This document shows positions 56,312 to 64,000 of a stretch of 64,000 nucleotides of DNA, one piece after another. The DNA lies in the NCBI RefSeq assembly GCF_020149765.1, contig NZ_CP083809.1:1984001-2048000 (forward strand), given 5' to 3'. Every line of letters begins with the position of its first letter. Position 1 is the stretch's first letter. This stretch comes from Pantoea agglomerans. GTDB lineage: Bacteria > Pseudomonadota > Gammaproteobacteria > Enterobacterales > Enterobacteriaceae. Position numbers and translations under genes: made by a program. The notes under the pieces were generated by a model, which searched no databases, was not told the DNA's origin, and worked only from the letters and a program-made list of their open reading frames with translations.

Positions 56312-58666
56312 TTATTTCAGACGGAACGCCACCACGCTGTCGCCGCCTTTGGTGCCGAGCGACCCGTGGCCACCAGCGGCAATCACCACATACTGCTTGC
56401 CATCTTTCCCCATAAAGGTCGACGGCGTGGCCTGCGCGCCCGCACTCAGCTCGGTCTGCCACAGCAGCGCGCCGGTGGTGCTGTCATAGGCGCGGAAGAA
56501 ATTATCCGCCGTCGCACCGTGAAACACCACATCGCCCGCCGTTACCAGCGGCCCGCCGTGCGCCACCATCCCCATCGGAAAGCCAATCGGGAAGCGGCCC
56601 GGCAGGAACGCCGTGTTGAGGTTTTTGGTGGTACCGACGCGGCGCAGCCATTCGGTCTTGCCGGTTTTCAGATCGACGCCCACCATACGACCCCACGGCG
56701 GCGCAATACAGGGTATGCCCAGCTCTGACGAGAACTGCTGAATATGGATAGCGTAATCGCCGTGGAAGTTTTCATTCCAGTAAGGCGAACCATCCTTAGT
56801 AAACAGACGCTCGGTGGCGGTGTCCGGCGTACGCTTGATCAGGTTGTACTTATAGGCCAGACGCACCGGGGCGGCGATCAGCAGCTGACGCTCAGGATCA
56901 ACCGCTACCGAGCCCCAGTTAAACACGCCGAAATTGCCCGGGAAAATCAGCGAGCCCTTCTCGGTCGCCGGCGTCCACGGATTGCCGTCATAGCGCAGTT
57001 CGCGGAAGCCGATACGGCAGCTCATCTGGTCGAACGGCGAAATACCCCACATCGCCTTTTCCGTCAGCGGCTGCGGAATAAAGTTCAGGCTGGAGACCGG
57101 CTGCGTGGCAGCGAACTTCTCGCCCGGGACGCCCCCTTCGGTCGACACCTTCACCTGATTAACCGGATAGATCGGCTGGCCGGTCAGACGGTTGAGCACA
57201 AACAGGTTGCCGGTTTTGGTCGGCAGGATCACCGCCGGCTGCGGGCTGCCCTGATAGTCGATATCCACCAGCGACGGCTGAGACGGGTTATCGCGGTCCC
57301 AGAGGTCGTGGCTGGCGCTCTGATAACGCCATTTAAAGGCGCCGGTTTTCAGATCCAGCGCCACCAGCGCATCGCGGAATTTCTCCGTGTTGCTGTTGGG
57401 ATCGCGCTCGATGCCGACTTCATCCGGCGAAGCGTTGCCAAACGGCACGTAGACCAGGCCGTTTTTCAGGTCGGCGCTCAGCGTCGCCCAGGCAACCGGA
57501 GTGTCCTGCGGATAGGTTGCATCCGCCGCAATCGGCTGGGTCGCTTCTGGCTGAGCCGGATCGAAGTTCCACACCAGACGGCCGGTGACGGCGTCCCAGG
57601 CGCGGATGACACCGGACGGGTTGCCGCGGTTAAAGCCGTTGTCCATCACCGAGCCGCCCACAATCACCAGATTGCCCGCCACCAGCGGCGCGGAGGTTTG
57701 CATCAGCGCATGCGGACGCACCTCGCCCATATTGACATGCAGGTCGACCACGCCGTTCTGACCGAAATCGGCGCACGGCTTGCCGCTGTCGGCGTCCAGC
57801 GCTACCAGCTTCGCATCGGTGGTCGCGTTATAAATACGTTTACGGCAGAGCGCAGGCTGCGAGCCGCTGTCTGCCCCCGCCGCGCTGCTGGCGTCGTAGA
57901 AAGCAACGCCGCGACAGGTCTGGTGCTGCTGCATATAGGAGCGATTCTGCGGCGGCGCATATTTCCACTTCACCGCGCCGGTTTCTGGATCGAGCGCGTG
58001 CACCTCATTATGCGGCGTACAGAAGTAGAGCATGCCGTTCACCTTCAGCGGCGTCGCCTCAAAGGTATACTCGGTCGCGTCATCGCTCTGGCGCAGGTCG
58101 CCGGTGTGGTAGGTCCAGGCTACCTCAAGATCTTTTACGTTCTCTTTGGTGATCTGATTCAGCGAGGAGAAGCGCAGCGCATTGGTGGAGCCGCCGTAGG
58201 CTGTCCAGTCATTGCCGGCGCCGGTGGAGGCGGACGGCGTGCGCGCAGTAGTAATGGTGCCCTGCTGCGGCAGCGGATCGTAAAAGCAGAGGCCGATCAC
58301 CAGCGCGATCATCACCACCACCGTAGAACCGAGGAAAGGATGGAATTTGCGCTGGGTCAGCGGACGCACCACCCAGGGAAGCGCCAGCCAGACGCCAAGC
58401 AGGCCGAACAGGTCGCCGCGCGGGATCCACTGCCACTTGTCAAAGCCGACTTCCCAGATAGTCCAGAACAGCGTGATCCACATCAGCAGCGCGTAGAGCG
58501 AGAGCGCGCTGCGTTTATTCAGGAACAGCAGCAGTGCGGTAAGCAGCAAGCCTGCGGCCATCAGCGCATAAAAGGCGCTGCCCCCCAGCAGCAAAAGCTT
58601 CCCGCCCATATACAGCATCGCAACGGCGACAATCGCCATCACGATACTGGTTAGCTTGTTAATCAT
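56312..58666 (-). CDS. gcd: PQQ-dependent membrane glucose dehydrogenase
   Basis: A 784-residue quinoprotein with five N-terminal transmembrane helices (about residues 1-140) and a periplasmic eight-bladed propeller. Motifs include NDWTAYGGSTNALRFSSLNQI, QTCRGVAFYD, NPSGVIRAWDAVTGRLVW and PFDQMSCRIGFRELRYDG, all as in E. coli Gcd. It oxidises glucose to gluconolactone in the periplasm and feeds electrons to ubiquinone; activity needs PQQ from outside or from pqq genes elsewhere. ATG at 58666 follows AGAAGGATC; the six extra N-terminal codons in the longer frame are that site. Gluconic acid production is typical of Pantoea-like bacteria. Confidence 0.95.
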   Translation of the reverse strand: MINKLTSIVMAIVAVAMLYMGGKLLLLGGSAFYALMAAGLLLTALLLFLNKRSALSLYALLMWITLFWTIWEVGFDKWQWIPRGDLFGLLGVWLALPWVVRPLTQRKFHPFLGSTVVVMIALVIGLCFYDPLPQQGTITTARTPSASTGAGNDWTAYGGSTNALRFSSLNQITKENVKDLEVAWTYHTGDLRQSDDATEYTFEATPLKVNGMLYFCTPHNEVHALDPETGAVKWKYAPPQNRSYMQQHQTCRGVAFYDASSAAGADSGSQPALCRKRIYNATTDAKLVALDADSGKPCADFGQNGVVDLHVNMGEVRPHALMQTSAPLVAGNLVIVGGSVMDNGFNRGNPSGVIRAWDAVTGRLVWNFDPAQPEATQPIAADATYPQDTPVAWATLSADLKNGLVYVPFGNASPDEVGIERDPNSNTEKFRDALVALDLKTGAFKWRYQSASHDLWDRDNPSQPSLVDIDYQGSPQPAVILPTKTGNLFVLNRLTGQPIYPVNQVKVSTEGGVPGEKFAATQPVSSLNFIPQPLTEKAMWGISPFDQMSCRIGFRELRYDGNPWTPATEKGSLIFPGNFGVFNWGSVAVDPERQLLIAAPVRLAYKYNLIKRTPDTATERLFTKDGSPYWNENFHGDYAIHIQQFSSELGIPCIAPPWGRMVGVDLKTGKTEWLRRVGTTKNLNTAFLPGRFPIGFPMGMVAHGGPLVTAGDVVFHGATADNFFRAYDSTTGALLWQTELSAGAQATPSTFMGKDGKQYVVIAAGGHGSLGTKGGDSVVAFRLK

Positions 58667-59149
58667 GATCCTTCTCTTCCTCATTCCAGCGACGAAATAA
58701 AATAAATAAACATAACTTCAACGTTATTTTAACTTAGGTAAATTTTTCGTAAAAACACAATATCTTGCGAGCCTTTAGCGAGGCTAACGAATTAGCGACA
58801 GCAAAAAACGCGACAGGCTTGCTGTGCAGAGATGCGACGCCAGAAGCTGCCCGTAATGGTCCGATACGGCTAATAAGTTAACGCGTTTTACCGCATCTTT
58901 TGTTCAAGCTGATGACAAATAAGACACACAAAATTAACACAATAGCCCGCGATGCCCTTTTCGTCCCCGATCGCCACCGCCTGCATCGCTTTACTGCACC
59001 TTAATGATGCGCAGGCGAACCATTAGTCTGTTAATTTGATGCCTGTATCGCCTTCCCGCGGAGCCAGACGCCCGGCCAGCGCGGCAAACGCCATTCCGGC
59101 ACCGTTCTTGCTTCTGCCTTGCTGACCCTATTCAGGCAGGAGAAGCTCT
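58667..59149. other. Long non-coding region between gcd and MFS gene
   Basis: 483 bp with no credible gene. The gcd side (58680-58790) is very A+T-rich and likely holds its promoter. AGGCAGGAGAAGCTCT near 59133 is the ribosome binding site of the next gene. I recognise no binding-site motif with certainty. Confidence 0.45.
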
Positions 59150-60469
59150 ATGCAGCCAAGTCGCTATCGTTACGTTATCTTTTCTCTTTTGTTCTTCGTG
59201 GCATTGATTAACTACATCGACCGCGGCGCACTGTCGTTTGCCGCTAACGCCATCTCGCAGGAGTATCAGTTCAGTAAAGTGCAGCTGGGCGCGGTGCTGG
59301 GCTATTTCGGTTTCGGCTATCTGTTCGGTTCGCTGTGCGGCGGCTTCCTCGCGGATCGGCTCGGCACCCGCAAGGTGTGGCTGATAGCGGGCGTGCTCTG
59401 GTCGCTGCTGGAGATTGCCACCGCCTGGGCCGGCGATTTGGGCATGGCGCTGTTCGGCGGCTCGGCGATTATGGGCTTCGCCGCCCTGCGCATTCTGTTC
59501 GGCTTCTCCGAGGGGCCGGCCTACGCGCTGATGAACAAAGCGATCGCCCACTGGGCGCCAGATAACGAGCGCGGCTTCGCGCTGAGCATCGGCCTGCTCT
59601 CCACGCAGGTAGGATCGCTGCTGACCGCGCCGATTGCGGTCGGTCTGCTGCTGCTGACCCACGACTGGCGCATGATGTTTATTCTGCTGGGCGTCTTCTC
59701 GCTGCTGGCGATGCTGCTGTTTGCGCGTACCTTCAGTGACTCCCCGGCGCAGCACCCGGCGGCGAACGCGGCGGAACGGGCGCTGATCCGCGACGGACAG
59801 CATCAGGAGGCGCACGGCGATACGCCGCTGCCCTGGTGGCGCTTCTTCACCAGCCGCACGCTGGTATGCAATGCGCTGGGCTACTTCTCCTTTCTCTATA
59901 TCACCTTTACCCTGGTGACCTGGCTGCCGAAATATCTGCAGGACAGCTTCCATTACGATCTCCATTCCCTCTGGTATGTGGCGATGATCCCCTGGAGCGG
60001 CGCCTGCCTGACGGTGCTGCTCGGCGGCCGACTCGCCGATCGCCTGCTGGCGCGCTTCAGTAATCTGCGCGTAGCGCGTAATCTGTTTGCCGCCGTGACG
60101 CTGCTGGGCACCGCCTGCTGTTTTATGGCCATTCCCTGGGCCGGATCGGCGGCGGCGATTATTGCGCTGATGACGCTGGGCAACGCGCTCAACGCCATGG
60201 TGAATAACGTTTACTGGTCGGTGGTGATCGACGTGACGCCAAAAGCCTCTGTCGGCGCCTTTAGCGGCATGACGCTGGCCATCGCCAACCTCGCTGCCAT
60301 TGTCTCGCCAATGCTGTGCGGCTGGCTGGCAGAGTATTACGGCTACAATGCGATGTTTACCGTCACCGCCCTGATTGCGCTGGGCAGCATGCTGGCGATG
60401 ACGCTGCTGCAGCCAGAGAAGCGTCTGCAGCCGCAGCCTGCGGCGGCCGTGGCGCAGCAGGCGCTATAA
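59150..60469 (+). CDS. MFS transporter, ACS family (sugar-acid type)
   Basis: A 439-residue, 12-helix transporter starting RYRYVIFSLLFFVALINYIDRGALSFAA in part, the opening of the hexuronate/glucarate branch of the anion:cation symporters. GGFLADRLGTRKVW is motif A and RILFGFSEGPAYALMNKA the motif of helix 4. Neighbouring Gcd makes gluconate, so uptake of gluconate, ketogluconate or a related acid is a reasonable guess. Strong ribosome binding site GCAGGAGAAGCTCT. Alone on its strand. Confidence 0.83.
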   Translation: MQPSRYRYVIFSLLFFVALINYIDRGALSFAANAISQEYQFSKVQLGAVLGYFGFGYLFGSLCGGFLADRLGTRKVWLIAGVLWSLLEIATAWAGDLGMALFGGSAIMGFAALRILFGFSEGPAYALMNKAIAHWAPDNERGFALSIGLLSTQVGSLLTAPIAVGLLLLTHDWRMMFILLGVFSLLAMLLFARTFSDSPAQHPAANAAERALIRDGQHQEAHGDTPLPWWRFFTSRTLVCNALGYFSFLYITFTLVTWLPKYLQDSFHYDLHSLWYVAMIPWSGACLTVLLGGRLADRLLARFSNLRVARNLFAAVTLLGTACCFMAIPWAGSAAAIIALMTLGNALNAMVNNVYWSVVIDVTPKASVGAFSGMTLAIANLAAIVSPMLCGWLAEYYGYNAMFTVTALIALGSMLAMTLLQPEKRLQPQPAAAVAQQAL

Positions 60470-60608
60470 CCGTCGGGGGCGCACGACAGGCCGTAACGCG
60501 CTGCGCAGTTCCCTCACCGCCTCGCGCGGCGGATCGAAGCCGTTTGCGGTACAGGTAACCGTTCCCTCCGCCGGGTACGCCGCAGAGCCTCAACCTGCGG
60601 CGCTGCCC

Positions 60609-61238
60609 TCAGCCGTGGCGTGCGCAGAAGCGCGCAATGTCACCCGACTGGAAATCAGCCAGGTTCGCCATCAGCTTTTCCAGCGGCCACTCCCACCAGG
60701 CGATCTGCTGCAGCCGTGCCGCAATCGCGGGCGTAAAGCGCATGCGGATCGGTTTCGCCGGCACGCCGCCCACGATACTGTAGGGGGCGACATCTTTGGT
60801 CACCACCGCGCCGGCCGCCAGCACCGCGCCGTCACCTACCGTGACGCCCGGTAGCACAATCACGCCGTGACCGATCCAGACGTCGTTGCCGATAATGACG
60901 CGTGCGGCGCGGCGGCTGGCGAAAAAGCCGCTGTCGCGCGTCGCGCGGGCGTCGTAATACTCAGGACAGTAGGTAAAGCGATGCTGTGAAGCGCGATCCA
61001 TGGGATGGTTTGGCGCGCCGAGGCGCACCTGGTTGGCGATAGCGGTAAAGCGGCCAATCTGCGCGTCCGCCACGCTGCAGTATTCGCCGAGACAGGAGAA
61101 GTCACCCAGCGTGCTGTATTCGAGACAGCTGTGCGCCAGGATTTCGCACTGCTGCCCGACGGTAGCGTCGCGCAGGCGTACGCTGTCGTGGATAAAGGTC
61201 TGCTGCAGTCGGGCGGAAGAGAGAGCGTGCAAAGACAT
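60609..61238 (-). CDS. Hexapeptide-repeat acetyltransferase (DapH/VatD/CatB type)
   Basis: A 209-residue left-handed beta-helix acyltransferase. Hexapeptide repeats run from about residue 15 to 165; catalytic His lies in APNHPMDRASQHRFTY, and VIIGNDVWIGHGVIVLPGVTVGDGAVLAAGAVVTKDV then GGVPAKPIR are typical. The layout fits the family seen with phosphonate genes (TIGR03308), but no phn genes are here, so the acceptor may be an antibiotic, sugar or other small molecule. ACGAGGCCACT decides the start at 61238. Immediately right lies the tisB-like locus on the same strand, with its own terminator between. Confidence 0.8.
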   Translation of the reverse strand: MSLHALSSARLQQTFIHDSVRLRDATVGQQCEILAHSCLEYSTLGDFSCLGEYCSVADAQIGRFTAIANQVRLGAPNHPMDRASQHRFTYCPEYYDARATRDSGFFASRRAARVIIGNDVWIGHGVIVLPGVTVGDGAVLAAGAVVTKDVAPYSIVGGVPAKPIRMRFTPAIAARLQQIAWWEWPLEKLMANLADFQSGDIARFCARHG

Positions 61239-61377
61239 AGTGGCCTCGTCTGGTCGGATGTCTGGATAAGCGGCGCGCGCGGCGCGGCGGAAACAGCGCT
61301 GACGGTAACGGGCGAAGATGACAGGCAGAAGACAGCGAGGTTGCGGCCGGGCAAGACGAGGACGGGACAAGGCGACG

Positions 61378-61406
61378 AAAAAGGCGGAGTGGTCAGCTCC
61401 GCCTTT
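61378..61406 (-). terminator. Terminator of tisB-like mRNA
   Basis: AAAGGCGGAG (61380-61389) and CTCCGCCTTT (61397-61406); on the minus strand the stem is followed by TTTTT. It ends the toxin mRNA 14 nt after the stop codon. Confidence 0.85.
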
Positions 61407-61419
61407 ATTCAAGTTCCGG

Positions 61420-61509
61420 CTAGTGATCCTGGCCGGTCAGTTGCAAAAGGGCAACGATGATCTGCAAGATGATCCGGATAAGATCCAGGATCAATCTAAT
61501 CAGCTCCAT
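61420..61509 (-). CDS. tisB: TisB-like SOS-induced toxic membrane peptide
   Basis: A 29-codon gene (starting MELIRLILDLI, ending LTGQDH) too short for ORF calling. It encodes one amphipathic hydrophobic helix with Arg and Asp at regular intervals; IIVALLQL aligns with IVAALQL of E. coli TisB, which also has 29 residues. TisB opens the inner membrane, lowers proton motive force and promotes persister formation after DNA damage. Support: AAGGAG ribosome binding site, held in a CTCCT-TTAAC-AGGAG hairpin (61520-61534) as expected for a standby-dependent toxin; about 205 nt leader; SOS box upstream; divergent antisense-type RNA; terminator. The C-terminus TGQDH differs from TisB, and ZorO is a second relative. 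Confidence 0.75.
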   Translation of the reverse strand: MELIRLILDLIRIILQIIVALLQLTGQDH

Positions 61510-61519
61510 CACTTTCCTT

Positions 61520-61534
61520 CTCCTTTAACAGGAG
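61520..61534 (-). promoter_or_regulatory. Hairpin sequestering the tisB ribosome binding site
   Basis: On the minus strand CTCCT-GTTAA-AGGAG: the second arm is the Shine-Dalgarno element of tisB. Such hiding of the site is a hallmark of tisB mRNA, where ribosomes load at an upstream standby site. Confidence 0.6.
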
Positions 61535-61592
61535 CGCGCTGTTCGGCTACCGAGGCTTTGACTCTACCCGCCGGGCGCCTAAGCACATCTTG

Positions 61593-61608
61593 TGGAGAGC
61601 GCTGAGCG
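61593..61608 (-). promoter_or_regulatory. Predicted IstR pairing (standby) site in tisB leader
   Basis: Plus-strand GTGGAGAGCGCTGAGC is repeated as GTGGAGAGTGCTGAGC at 61787-61802 in the divergent RNA. RNA from the right copy can therefore pair over 16 nt (one U-G) with the tisB mRNA at about +107 to +122 of the predicted transcript. Confidence 0.7.
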
Positions 61609-61718
61609 GCACTCGTTGCTAAAGCCACAGGCCAGCACCACCTGATGCCTGCCGGGATTTTCAAAACCGTGCCCCTGGGAGCGGCCAGTCAGCAAGTCGG
61701 CTCAGCTACGCGCTCAAC

Positions 61719-61738
61719 ACCTGTATAACCATACAGTA
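61719..61738. promoter_or_regulatory. LexA (SOS) box and tisB promoter
   Basis: CTGTATAACCATACAG (61721-61736) fits CTG-N10-CAG with alternating TA-rich flanks (ACCTG..CAGTA). On the minus strand TATACA inside it can act as the -10 element, giving a start near 61714. LexA binding would shut off tisB until DNA damage. Confidence 0.85.
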
Positions 61739-61750
61739 TTTTGGCGAAAC

Positions 61751-61779
61751 TTGAAATATTTCTCCGCGCTATTTAGAAT
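61751..61779 (+). promoter_or_regulatory. Constitutive promoter of istR-like RNA
   Basis: TTGAAA (61751-61756) and TAGAAT (61774-61779) with a 17-bp spacer: near-consensus sigma70 promoter directed away from tisB and outside the LexA box, start expected near 61785. Confidence 0.8.
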
Positions 61780-61784
61780 CGCAG

Positions 61785-61882
61785 GTGTGGAGAGTGCTGA
61801 GCACCTCGTTCGCGGCGCGGTCACCAGCCGTTAAGCGAACAAAAAAAGAAAGGATTTGGCCGTGACGCCAAATCCTTTTTTT
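61785..61882 (+). ncRNA. istR: IstR-1-like antitoxin small RNA
   Basis: About 98 nt from the predicted start to the end of a strong terminator (AAAGGATTTGGC-loop-GCCAAATCCTTT, then T-run; 61849-61882). The 5' end holds GTGGAGAGTGCTGAGC, complementary to the tisB mRNA standby region. Constant expression from a LexA-independent promoter would keep tisB silent in unstressed cells, as IstR-1 does in E. coli. A longer IstR-2-type transcript from the SOS box region is possible. No open frame with a start codon and ribosome binding site lies inside. Confidence 0.72.
61849..61882 (+). terminator. Terminator of istR-like RNA
   Basis: 12-bp stem AAAGGATTTGGC / GCCAAATCCTTT with a CGTGAC loop and a following T-run. 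It abuts the stop of the minus-strand dehydrogenase gene and may also end that transcript. Confidence 0.9.
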
Positions 61883-61896
61883 ATGCCCGCAAAAAG

Positions 61897-63189
61897 CTAC
61901 TTCGCGCTGACGCGCCACACCGTGTTGCCGGCGTCATCCGCAATCAGCAGTCCGCCCTGACTATCGGCAGCCAGACCGACCGGCAAGCCTCGCACCTGCT
62001 TCTGATCGTCGGTCAGAAAGCCCGTCACCACCGGCTGCGGCAATCCGACCGGCTTACCGTTTTCAAATTTCACCCACACCACCTGATAGCCGTTAAGCGG
62101 CGTGCGGTTCCAGCTGCCGTGTTCGCTGACGAAGGCGCCGCCGCGATACTGCGGCATATTGTCCGCCTGGTAGAAGAGCAGCCCCAGCGGCGCAACGTGC
62201 GAGCTGAGCGCATAGTCTGGCTTAATCGCCTTCTCTACCAGGTCGGGACGCTGCGGCTGGGCGCGCGTATCCACATGCTGACCGAAATAGCTGTAGGGCC
62301 AGCCGTAGAATCCATTCTCCTGCACCGACGTCATATAGTCCGGCACCAGATCGGAGCCGATCTCGTCACGCTCGTTAACGATGGCCCACAGCCGGTTGCT
62401 CTGCGGCTCCCACTGCAGCCCGGTCGGGTTGCGCAGCCCGCTGGCGTAAACGCGCGTCGCGCCGCTGGCGGCGTCCACTTCCAGCACCGCCGCACGATGA
62501 TATTCCGCGCCGATGCCGTTCTCGGTGATATTGCTGTTGGAGCCGATGCCAACATAGAGCTTGCTGCCGTCCGGGCTGGCGACCAGCGCTTTGGTCCAGT
62601 GATGGTTAATCGGCCCGCCCGGCAGATCGGTCACCCGCTGAGGCGGCGTGCGGATCTCCGTTTGCCCCTCCTGATAGGGGAACTTCACCAGGCTGTCGGC
62701 GTTGGCGACATAGAGCGTATTGCCGATCAGCTGCATACCAAAGGGGGAAAAGAGGTTGTCGATAAAGGTGTGCTGCTCCCATTTACCGTTGACGTTGCGC
62801 AGCAGCGTGATGCGGTTGCCGCCCTCGCCGCCTTTTCCTGACGCCTTCTGCACAATGCCCATAATCAGCTGCTTGGGTCGCGTGGTGGGTTTGGCCGGGC
62901 CGTTCGATTCCGCCACCAGCACATCGCCGTTAGGCAGCGTCAGCACCTGACGCGGATGCCTGAGGTTTTCCGCGATTTTTTCAATTTTCAGCCCCTGCGC
63001 CACCTTCGGCATCTCGCCCTGCTTCCACGGCACCCCTTCCGGCACCTGCATCGGCGGCATAAAGAAGTTTTTCGCTTCAGGCAGTTCCGGGTTCGGTCCG
63101 ATCTGCTTTTGCGGATCGAGCTGGGCGCCGCTGTCGCAGCCAGCCAGCAGCGCGGTCAGCGCCACGGCGATAAGCGTTTGCTTTTTCAT
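61897..63189 (-). CDS. PQQ-dependent sugar (sorbosone) dehydrogenase-like lipoprotein
   Basis: A 430-residue lipoprotein: signal with lipobox LLAGC (Cys18) and a six-bladed propeller of the sorbosone/soluble aldose dehydrogenase type (PQQ-GDH-B fold). Segments HPRQVLTLPNGDVLVAES, HHWTKALVASPDGSKLYVGIGSN, ASGLRNPTGLQWEPQSNRLWA and GAFVSEHGSWNRTPLNGYQVVW are typical and contain PQQ and calcium contacts. It probably oxidises aldoses or sorbosone in the periplasm. GGAGAGGCACCG precedes the ATG. Together with gcd it makes two PQQ enzymes in 7 kb. A DUF2231 membrane gene lies 12 bp upstream on the same strand. Confidence 0.85.
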   Translation of the reverse strand: MKKQTLIAVALTALLAGCDSGAQLDPQKQIGPNPELPEAKNFFMPPMQVPEGVPWKQGEMPKVAQGLKIEKIAENLRHPRQVLTLPNGDVLVAESNGPAKPTTRPKQLIMGIVQKASGKGGEGGNRITLLRNVNGKWEQHTFIDNLFSPFGMQLIGNTLYVANADSLVKFPYQEGQTEIRTPPQRVTDLPGGPINHHWTKALVASPDGSKLYVGIGSNSNITENGIGAEYHRAAVLEVDAASGATRVYASGLRNPTGLQWEPQSNRLWAIVNERDEIGSDLVPDYMTSVQENGFYGWPYSYFGQHVDTRAQPQRPDLVEKAIKPDYALSSHVAPLGLLFYQADNMPQYRGGAFVSEHGSWNRTPLNGYQVVWVKFENGKPVGLPQPVVTGFLTDDQKQVRGLPVGLAADSQGGLLIADDAGNTVWRVSAK

Positions 63190-63201
63190 CGGTGCCTCTC
63201 C

Positions 63202-63609
63202 TTAAGCGATGCGCTGACGCAGCGCGAGTTGAACATTGGCGATCAGCATCAGCACCACCACACAGGTGGACAGCGTTACGCCGGACGGCACGACAGCGTA
63301 GGCGTCGCGGCTGTGAACGAAGGCGTTGACGATGGCCAGCACAACCGCCAGCAGCGTCAGCCAGAAATGGACCTTCTCCGCGCGGCTGCTGCCGCGGAAC
63401 AGATCAATCAGGGCGATAAGACGCGGAATAATGGCGATAACCAGCCCGATGGCGATTAGCCAGCTGGCGGCGTGCGTCCACTCCACGACATAACTGTTAA
63501 GGTAAATAATGTCGAAGATCCATGCCGCCACAAAAAAGCCGAGCGGCACAGGTTCCAACAGCGTGTAAAGCGCCACGGCAAAAGCCGATCGTCCCGAGTG
63601 TCTGGTCAT
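63202..63609 (-). CDS. DUF2231 membrane protein
   Basis: A 135-residue protein with four helices of the DUF2231 type (YTLLEPVPLGFFVAAWIFDIIY, then HAASWLIAIGLVIAIIPRLIALIDLF). Proteins of this family are often paired with sorbosone-dehydrogenase-like genes, as here (12 bp gap), suggesting an electron-transfer or anchoring role; this is an inference. The ATG at 63609 has GGAGATGAGA upstream; in-frame ATGs at 63615 and 63621 are possible, and the 63678 start has no site. Confidence 0.72.
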   Translation of the reverse strand: MTRHSGRSAFAVALYTLLEPVPLGFFVAAWIFDIIYLNSYVVEWTHAASWLIAIGLVIAIIPRLIALIDLFRGSSRAEKVHFWLTLLAVVLAIVNAFVHSRDAYAVVPSGVTLSTCVVVLMLIANVQLALRQRIA

Positions 63610-63736
63610 TCTCATCTCCATATCATTGAGCGTTACAGCACATAAAACGCGCTGCGCCTGTAAAATATTAGTAAACATGAAGAAAAGTGACGGAAAGATT
63701 CAGGATGTGATGCGGCGTCCCTGCCGCAAAACCGCG

Positions 63737-64000
63737 TCAGCCCTTGTCAGCGGGCAGCGTGACCCAGTAGCCGGGCTGGTAAGGCAGGGGTAAAAATTTC
63801 TCATGGAATTCGCGGAAGGTGGCATCCGGATCGAGATCGGCAAAGAGATCGGGATGCAGCCACTTCGCCAGCACCTGGATGGCGACAAACTGATAAGGAC
63901 TGTCGTAGAACTGATGCCAGATGGCGTGCGCGTGGCCGTTGTGCGCCACCGGAAGGGTTTTAAAGGCGTCGCGCATCATCAGCATGTGCAGGCGCTTTTC
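63737..64000 (-). CDS. Iron-complex ABC transporter substrate-binding protein, C-terminal part
   Basis: The frame is open to the window edge, so only the last 87 residues are seen. HAHAIWHQFYDSPYQFVAIQVLAKWLHPDLFADLDPD and the FLPLPYQPGYWVTL end are those of periplasmic ferric-siderophore or haem-type binding proteins of the FecB/BtuF fold. The rest of the gene and probably a TonB-dependent receptor or permease lie to the right. Confidence 0.65.
   Translation of the reverse strand, partial: EKRLHMLMMRDAFKTLPVAHNGHAHAIWHQFYDSPYQFVAIQVLAKWLHPDLFADLDPDATFREFHEKFLPLPYQPGYWVTLPADKG

Follow-up and report, generated by a model that had tools for sequence, protein, structure and literature searches.

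The window analysed here, a 64,000-nt stretch of the Pantoea agglomerans genome, carries near its right-hand end a putative type I toxin–antitoxin locus with divergent genes and a LexA box, whose arrangement, as confirmed at the level of sequence, is that of tisB/istR-1 in E. coli. On the minus strand, a leader of ~200 nt between the LexA box and the Shine–Dalgarno sequence GGAGAAGG precedes a short hydrophobic open reading frame, the transcript of which plausibly starts, judging from the sequence, at position 61714; on the plus strand, a small antisense RNA is predicted to be transcribed in the opposite direction (Table 1). The anatomy and control logic of the locus had been read from the letters alone in a preliminary description, and conservation and co-varying complementarity indicate that this reading was right; function we infer. 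The open reading frame is read directly from the sequence and keeps its 29 codons in 44 of 45 distinct loci, the Shine–Dalgarno sequence is hidden as had been described (the minimum-energy fold has its AGGAG paired to CTCCT), and a promoter scan of 61300-61960 listed no promoter-like site other than the divergent TTGAAA-17-TAGAAT (shuffle mean 0.2). The described 98-nt RNA with a terminator fared less evenly: the RNA folds with a z of -5.77, whereas the terminator, placed by eye and fold, went unlisted on the plus strand by a terminator scan, which reported the antisense hairpin in its minus-strand reading only (1 found; shuffle mean 1.0). The toxin terminator was not listed by the same scan.

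Table 1. Features of the toxin–antitoxin locus, in positions of the window.
Feature	Position	Strand	Remarks
LexA (SOS) box CTGTATAACCATACAG	61721..61736	.	near-perfect; core also present next to recA and sulA of own genome
Toxin open reading frame, 29 codons + stop, MELIRLILDLIRIILQIIVALLQLTGQDH	61509-61420	-	one hydrophobic helix expected
Shine–Dalgarno sequence GGAGAAGG	61523-61516	-	read from sequence
Sequestering hairpin CTCCT(N5)AGGAG	61534-61520	-	minimum-energy fold
Shine–Dalgarno region including hairpin, as one feature	61516..61534	-	
Leader element, E. coli tisB pseudoknot type	61618..61662	-	model R1
Pseudoknot stem 2, left arm GCAGG	61648..61652	-	
Pseudoknot stem 2, right arm CCTGT	61627..61631	-	
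Antisense target (presumed standby site) in toxin leader	61591..61607	-	
Antisense RNA promoter TTGAAA-17-TAGAAT	61751..61779	+	
Antitoxin RNA, 98 nt, ends inferred	61785..61882	+	predicted from sequence
Seed at 5' end of antitoxin RNA, complementary to target	61786..61802	+	
Antitoxin RNA terminator, hairpin + T run	61849..61882	+	by eye and fold; stem conserved
Coding-region hairpin GTTGC(CCTTTT)GCAAC, codons 19-24	61440..61455	-	
Toxin mRNA terminator	61378..61405	-	by eye and fold

A 523-bp stretch of locus DNA was matched in the window's own genome and in 33 of 35 congeners (34 of the 36 Pantoea genomes sampled), in none of 24 genomes outside the genus, and nowhere in the plasmid and phage collections. 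The 63 locus records obtained, which include the window's own and represent many genomes twice, reduce to the 45 distinct sequences used below. Among these, the toxin starts with ATG in 44 and with ATT in one, and the single exception to the 29-codon length has 38 codons. Around the GTTGC...GCAAC hairpin, codons 17-20 and 23-25 do not vary across the 45, even at synonymous sites, which suggests for these positions a precise role of the peptide or a constraint on the RNA; of 31 canonical tisB loci, 23 were caught by a single pattern as having a GTTGC...GCAAC-like sequence. The losses that the preliminary description had named as evidence against itself, namely of the reading frame, the SOS box or the complementarity in close relatives, were looked for and are absent; all three are conserved, and the complementarity co-varies.

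The chromosomal setting had been given as a site between an acetyltransferase and a PQQ dehydrogenase. The sugar-dehydrogenase side of this statement holds in 29 of 31 named loci, whereas the acetyltransferase is an inconstant neighbour (14/31, two of these being short matches). Chance open reading frame, leader peptide and prophage gene were considered and rejected as identities of the peptide; the genes around it are metabolic, and those 29 loci retain the sugar-dehydrogenase flank. In the two remaining named loci (L072 and L077), none of the four window neighbours lies within ~3 kb, indicating a different site. One Pantoea genome carries an extra copy of the toxin 3' end and terminator (L104, 2491-2577) at ~100 bp from its intact locus, and two records titled Enterobacter ludwigii and Enterobacter cancerogenus (L085 and L100) hold a Pantoea-type locus with a neighbour protein 86-88% identical; their titles may be wrong.

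The LexA box, described beforehand as CTG-N10-CAG, is borne out both by its presence in 45 of 45 distinct loci and by a genome-wide count of its core. The 4.84-Mb genome contains CTGTAT-N4-ATACAG six times, against 0 for the reversed control, and the six sites lie beside recA, sulA and a umuDC-like pair, in two phage-like stretches, and at the toxin locus. Because the box core is common to recA, sulA and the umuDC-like genes, the sequence supports the assignment of the toxin locus to LexA control.

On the divergent strand, the antisense promoter retains a 17-nt spacer at its best site, with 8-10 of 12 consensus bases, in 45/45 distinct loci. The preliminary description had noted a 16-nt direct repeat with one mismatch, read as U-G in RNA, joining the 5' end of the antisense RNA to the toxin leader; the repeat and its mismatch stand, and the leader coordinates shift by one, to 61592-61607 from 61593-61608. 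Extended, the repeat spans 17 nt (61591-61607 vs 61786-61802), the one T/C difference becoming G-U in RNA. The duplex prediction proposed for the antisense RNA and the toxin transcript gave a divided answer, since 1 of 500 shuffles did as well but so did 402 of 1000 random 98-mers of the window. Total duplex energy of the full antisense RNA against the toxin mRNA was therefore set aside as uninformative and the longest helix was used in its place: it measures 17 bp, and a helix of at least 17 bp was found with 1 of 1500 random window 98-mers.

In the sequences compared, antisense RNA and target change together. The two variable seed bases match between them in 61/61 records (TC 30, CT 28, AT 3), a set that includes duplicates of the same genomes and holds three haplotypes. 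Over the full 16 nt, seed and target are identical in 26 of the 61 records and differ by one base in 35; of the latter, 14 permit G-U and 21 are non-pairing at that base, and the difference falls at the same position in 34. The target begins 25 nt past an 11-nt core motif of the leader in every one of the 61 records. When put to the Rfam covariance model of istR (RF01400), a check that the preliminary description had suggested, the antitoxin RNA went unrecognised: none of three Pantoea loci reached the gathering cut-off, compared with nine of nine canonical tisB loci, and the region 58000-64000 gave no match up to an E value of 5.

Upstream of the target lies a leader element that connects the Pantoea locus with E. 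coli tisB. Translation of tisB is described as requiring an H-type pseudoknot in the leader, an essential element in which positions 53-57 pair with 73-77, and positions 54-57 were mutated against 74-77 (PMC7708055); we map the mutated E. coli positions to GCUG/CAGC. The elements from which the model R1 was built had initially been gathered with a filter requiring four of five stem-2 pairs, and an unfiltered recount showed that this filter had removed none of the distinct leader cores, which number 57 (27 from Pantoea, 24 canonical and 6 others). Scored without any pairing filter, all 57 cores form four or five of the five stem-2 pairs; one leader with a differing core (L022) falls outside the core pattern, and off-site cores, which include other leaders, provide no clean control for this count. 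Three of the five base pairs differ on both sides between lineages.

Covariation of stem 2 was assessed with 19 selected leaders, aligned without gaps, against 500 shuffles. Pairing cells amounted to 92.6% (0/500 shuffles reach this), 24 cells were changed on both sides vs 7.4 in shuffles (0/500), and the covariation score was 0.746 vs 0.201 (0/500), or at most 0.392 when the partner was slid; these three measures can rise above shuffles from relatedness alone. In the same 19 leaders, the number of pairs changed on both sides was that of the shuffles (3 vs 2.9), and further pair types numbered 10 vs 8.4, a value reached in 53/500 shuffles. A register-free swap test barely separated own from swapped partners (5.86 bp, n=28, vs 5.38 bp, n=672), and it picked the wrong site in L067. 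R1 recovers the locus in its own genome with 51.3 bits (E 1.1e-11), the window sequence being one of the 19 training rows. Pseudoknot stem 2 is shared between the Pantoea locus and E. coli tisB.

Although TisB was the top match in both collections, the toxin peptide scored 9.1 bits against a cut-off of 25 with Pfam PF13939 and 6.9 bits against a cut-off of 38 with NCBIfam TIGR04459, and in a Pfam scan of ten relatives' peptides a single one, a second TisB copy, gave a match, another Pantoea variant being without any. Searching with the Pantoea peptides recovered relatives from 10 of the 392 genomes of the family and 4 of 154 genera; PF13939 exceeds its cut-off in 76 of the 392 genomes, and 27 of the 154 genera hold a match to it with an E value of 0.01 or lower. 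Profile comparison with hhalign placed the Pantoea toxins against TisB at 91.5%, with a score of 26.7 over 18 columns (best of 60 column-shuffled controls, 18.5), and against DinQ-like toxins at a score of 14.9, inside the shuffled range (best 20.6); TisB against the DinQ-like profile scored 23.7 (shuffled best, 17.9). At profile level, the Pantoea toxin is related to TisB. As the curated models call neither TisB nor istR, 'tisB-like' is a better name than 'tisB'. The functional homology with tisB claimed beforehand is supported with caveats: order and spacing resemble those of tisB and the leader element is shared, the curated TisB and istR models do not recognise the locus, and function would follow from analogy.

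Set beside tisB/istR-1, the locus shares the LexA box, a divergent antisense RNA with a 5' end that would pair with the leader at a site well upstream of the Shine–Dalgarno sequence, the order of parts, leader pseudoknot stem 2 and the hidden Shine–Dalgarno hairpin, a layout similar to that of canonical tisB leaders. It also shares a 29-residue toxin with an IVAxLQL core and GTTGC...GCAAC in the coding sequence. Spacing is close, with 97 nt in E. coli vs 93 in Pantoea from LexA box to leader core, 32 vs 36 nt from leader core to antisense target, and 155 vs 134 nt from leader core to ATG. The toxins differ at both termini, the Pantoea antisense RNA is missed by the istR model, and the chromosomal sites are distinct (ivbL-emrD in E. 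coli vs the sugar-dehydrogenase side in Pantoea). Similarity extends further still: dinQ/agrB and plasmid-borne dqlB/agrB have a divergent antisense RNA and a like leader element, with SOS control in the case of dinQ, but differ in toxin core (ALLELIR), in the GTG start of dinQ and in spacing inside the element. shoB/ohsC offers a toxin core IIIAVLQL, and an antisense target just downstream of a weak leader match at the expected place; as a difference, its K-12 stretch shows no LexA box on visual inspection. Pantoea and other genera also hold second tisB-like loci (L067, L070, L102, L103, L112, L189), which have the leader element and a QLTGR toxin end but a GTG start and another antisense seed, the repeat being scored for L189 only; L102, L103 and L112 are second, diverged loci on other contigs in some Pantoea genomes.

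We consider it highly probable that the locus is an SOS-controlled divergent type I toxin–antitoxin system of the tisB/istR-1 class, forming a separate Pantoea subfamily and acting as tisB logic predicts. DNA damage would lead to LexA cleavage and synthesis of the toxin mRNA, which would then outnumber the antisense RNA. Ribosomes would dock at a distant standby site in the leader, composed of the pseudoknot and a single-stranded site, unless the antisense RNA covered the latter; by analogy with tisB, docked ribosomes would shift to the otherwise hidden Shine–Dalgarno sequence and translate the 29-residue membrane peptide, which would enter the membrane, depolarise the cell and slow growth. 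For mRNA processing, standby loading, toxicity and dormancy alike, we infer the Pantoea case from experiments in E. coli.

One alternative concerns ribosome standby. Under control of the dinQ/agrB type, antisense binding would refold the leader and hide the Shine–Dalgarno sequence with no standby involved, and this arrangement gains from the like element borne by DinQ-like loci and from a report that translation of dinQ +44 is independent of ribosome standby (PMC5668327); the Pantoea toxin profile is nevertheless nearer TisB, its match to DinQ-like toxins lying within the shuffled range, and we regard such control as rather unlikely here. The agreement of seed and target could also be maintained by gene conversion between two short repeats instead of by selection for pairing, since the copies are 195 bp apart and agree at both variable bases throughout the 61 records. 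Their identity is, however, limited to ~17 nt with differing flanks, and the one-position difference in 35 of those records, 34 of them at the same position, argues against conversion, which should have erased it; conversion seems quite improbable as the explanation.

The remaining alternatives concern the peptide and its state. A conserved, SOS-induced membrane peptide that is regulatory and not toxic, with an antisense RNA that merely tunes its dose, would accommodate the frozen codons 17-20 and 23-25 if these reflect a precise role, although the same codons may answer to an RNA constraint; such type I toxin mRNAs are described as commonly silenced in two layers, through a hidden ribosome site and through an antisense RNA (PMC5668327), and the regulatory peptide is in our view improbable. 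That the locus is a silent relic can draw on the missing DNA match in 2 of 35 congeners and on the ATT codon in one of 45 loci, but with frame, box, promoter and seed agreement all conserved this is exceedingly improbable. The reading as a toxin–antitoxin system with tisB logic is retained, with the Pantoea loci as a subfamily that has diverged within the tisB class, has kept the RNA leader in common with it and possibly belongs to a wider family including DinQ and ShoB.

The case for that wider family comes from searches with R1, none of whose 19 training rows is a DinQ or ShoB member. Over the 392 family genomes, R1 found 86 strong places at 41-55 bits (training rows included), followed by a gap down to 32 bits. 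Thirteen places follow (E 1e-5 to 1e-3), of which 12 have an antisense-type repeat, and nine of these also a hydrophobic open reading frame at the expected distance; both features occurred together at 7 of 1500 random positions sampled within fetched loci, themselves bearers of such systems. Among the 12, L154 is a CRISPR spacer and no locus, its repeat match arising from the array's own repeats, and one of the nine (L162) has a DinQ-like frame that looks disrupted. The toxins found in this way are, by labels assigned by eye, DinQ-like, ShoB-like, second TisB-like and unnamed peptides. Of 21 other weak places fetched, which are part of those listed, 5 show both repeat and open reading frame, so the weak tail mixes real loci with chance. 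In five of ten DinQ-like leaders, picked for equal length, 94.3% of stem-2 cells pair and covariation is 0.629 vs 0.373 (1/500 shuffles), while further pair types do not exceed shuffles (464/500). In K-12 stretches, R1 matched both genes at the expected place, dinQ with 14.5 bits (E 0.017 over 21.6 kb) and shoB with 10.6 bits, which at E 0.28 is not significant alone. Extended to the whole order at E up to 0.001, the search detected the element in 15 of 345 genomes, every one of them a member of the family to which the window belongs.

R1, with neither DinQ nor ShoB members in its training set, picks up DinQ-like and ShoB-like loci whose parts follow the same order, and these systems may therefore be one family. 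We lean slightly towards the view that TisB, DinQ/DqlB, ShoB, the Pantoea toxins and several unnamed peptides make up a single enterobacterial type I family, whose conserved core would be a homologous ribosome-docking leader pseudoknot and in which toxin sequence, antisense seed and even the SOS box would be exchangeable. Several finds of the search stand somewhat apart. L163 and L173, in another genus, have an unnamed toxin type (MSLLSAIIVVLEF-VA-MRLIRLLFN) together with the leader element and a LexA box; L161 has LexA box, leader element and repeat with no open reading frame by the criteria used. The spacer of L154 (G120:C10, ~842-874, in an array of period 61) matches the toxin-leader element, by eye closest to the ShoB-like form, and such loci may therefore ride on CRISPR-targeted mobile elements.

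In the literature, tisB, zor and shoB are called non-homologous, with pseudoknots predicted at equivalent positions in zor and shoB (PMC7708055); a shared fold is thus an idea already present in that paper, and what may be new here is the proposed homology of the leader element. Similarities and differences between dinQ and tisB have been listed (PMC5668327), excerpts of PMC3567139 state that no homology was found for DinQ peptides, and DqlB is described as an experimentally tested plasmid DinQ-like system (PMC12365149). Among open-access papers on Pantoea with tisB or type I toxin–antitoxin systems, titles and the beginnings of abstracts mention no such locus. Excerpts of PMC9040746 present tisB/istR as restricted to the Enterobacter-Escherichia clade, and published searches are described as using 90% identity and coverage for the protein and 80% for genes. 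The presence of a conserved counterpart with the same RNA element in 34 of 36 Pantoea genomes points to an older and broader system. The Pantoea loci offer a natural test set for standby translation, and the wider family, if true, would make the leader element a search probe for type I toxins missed by protein models and would explain the common control logic among systems called non-homologous.
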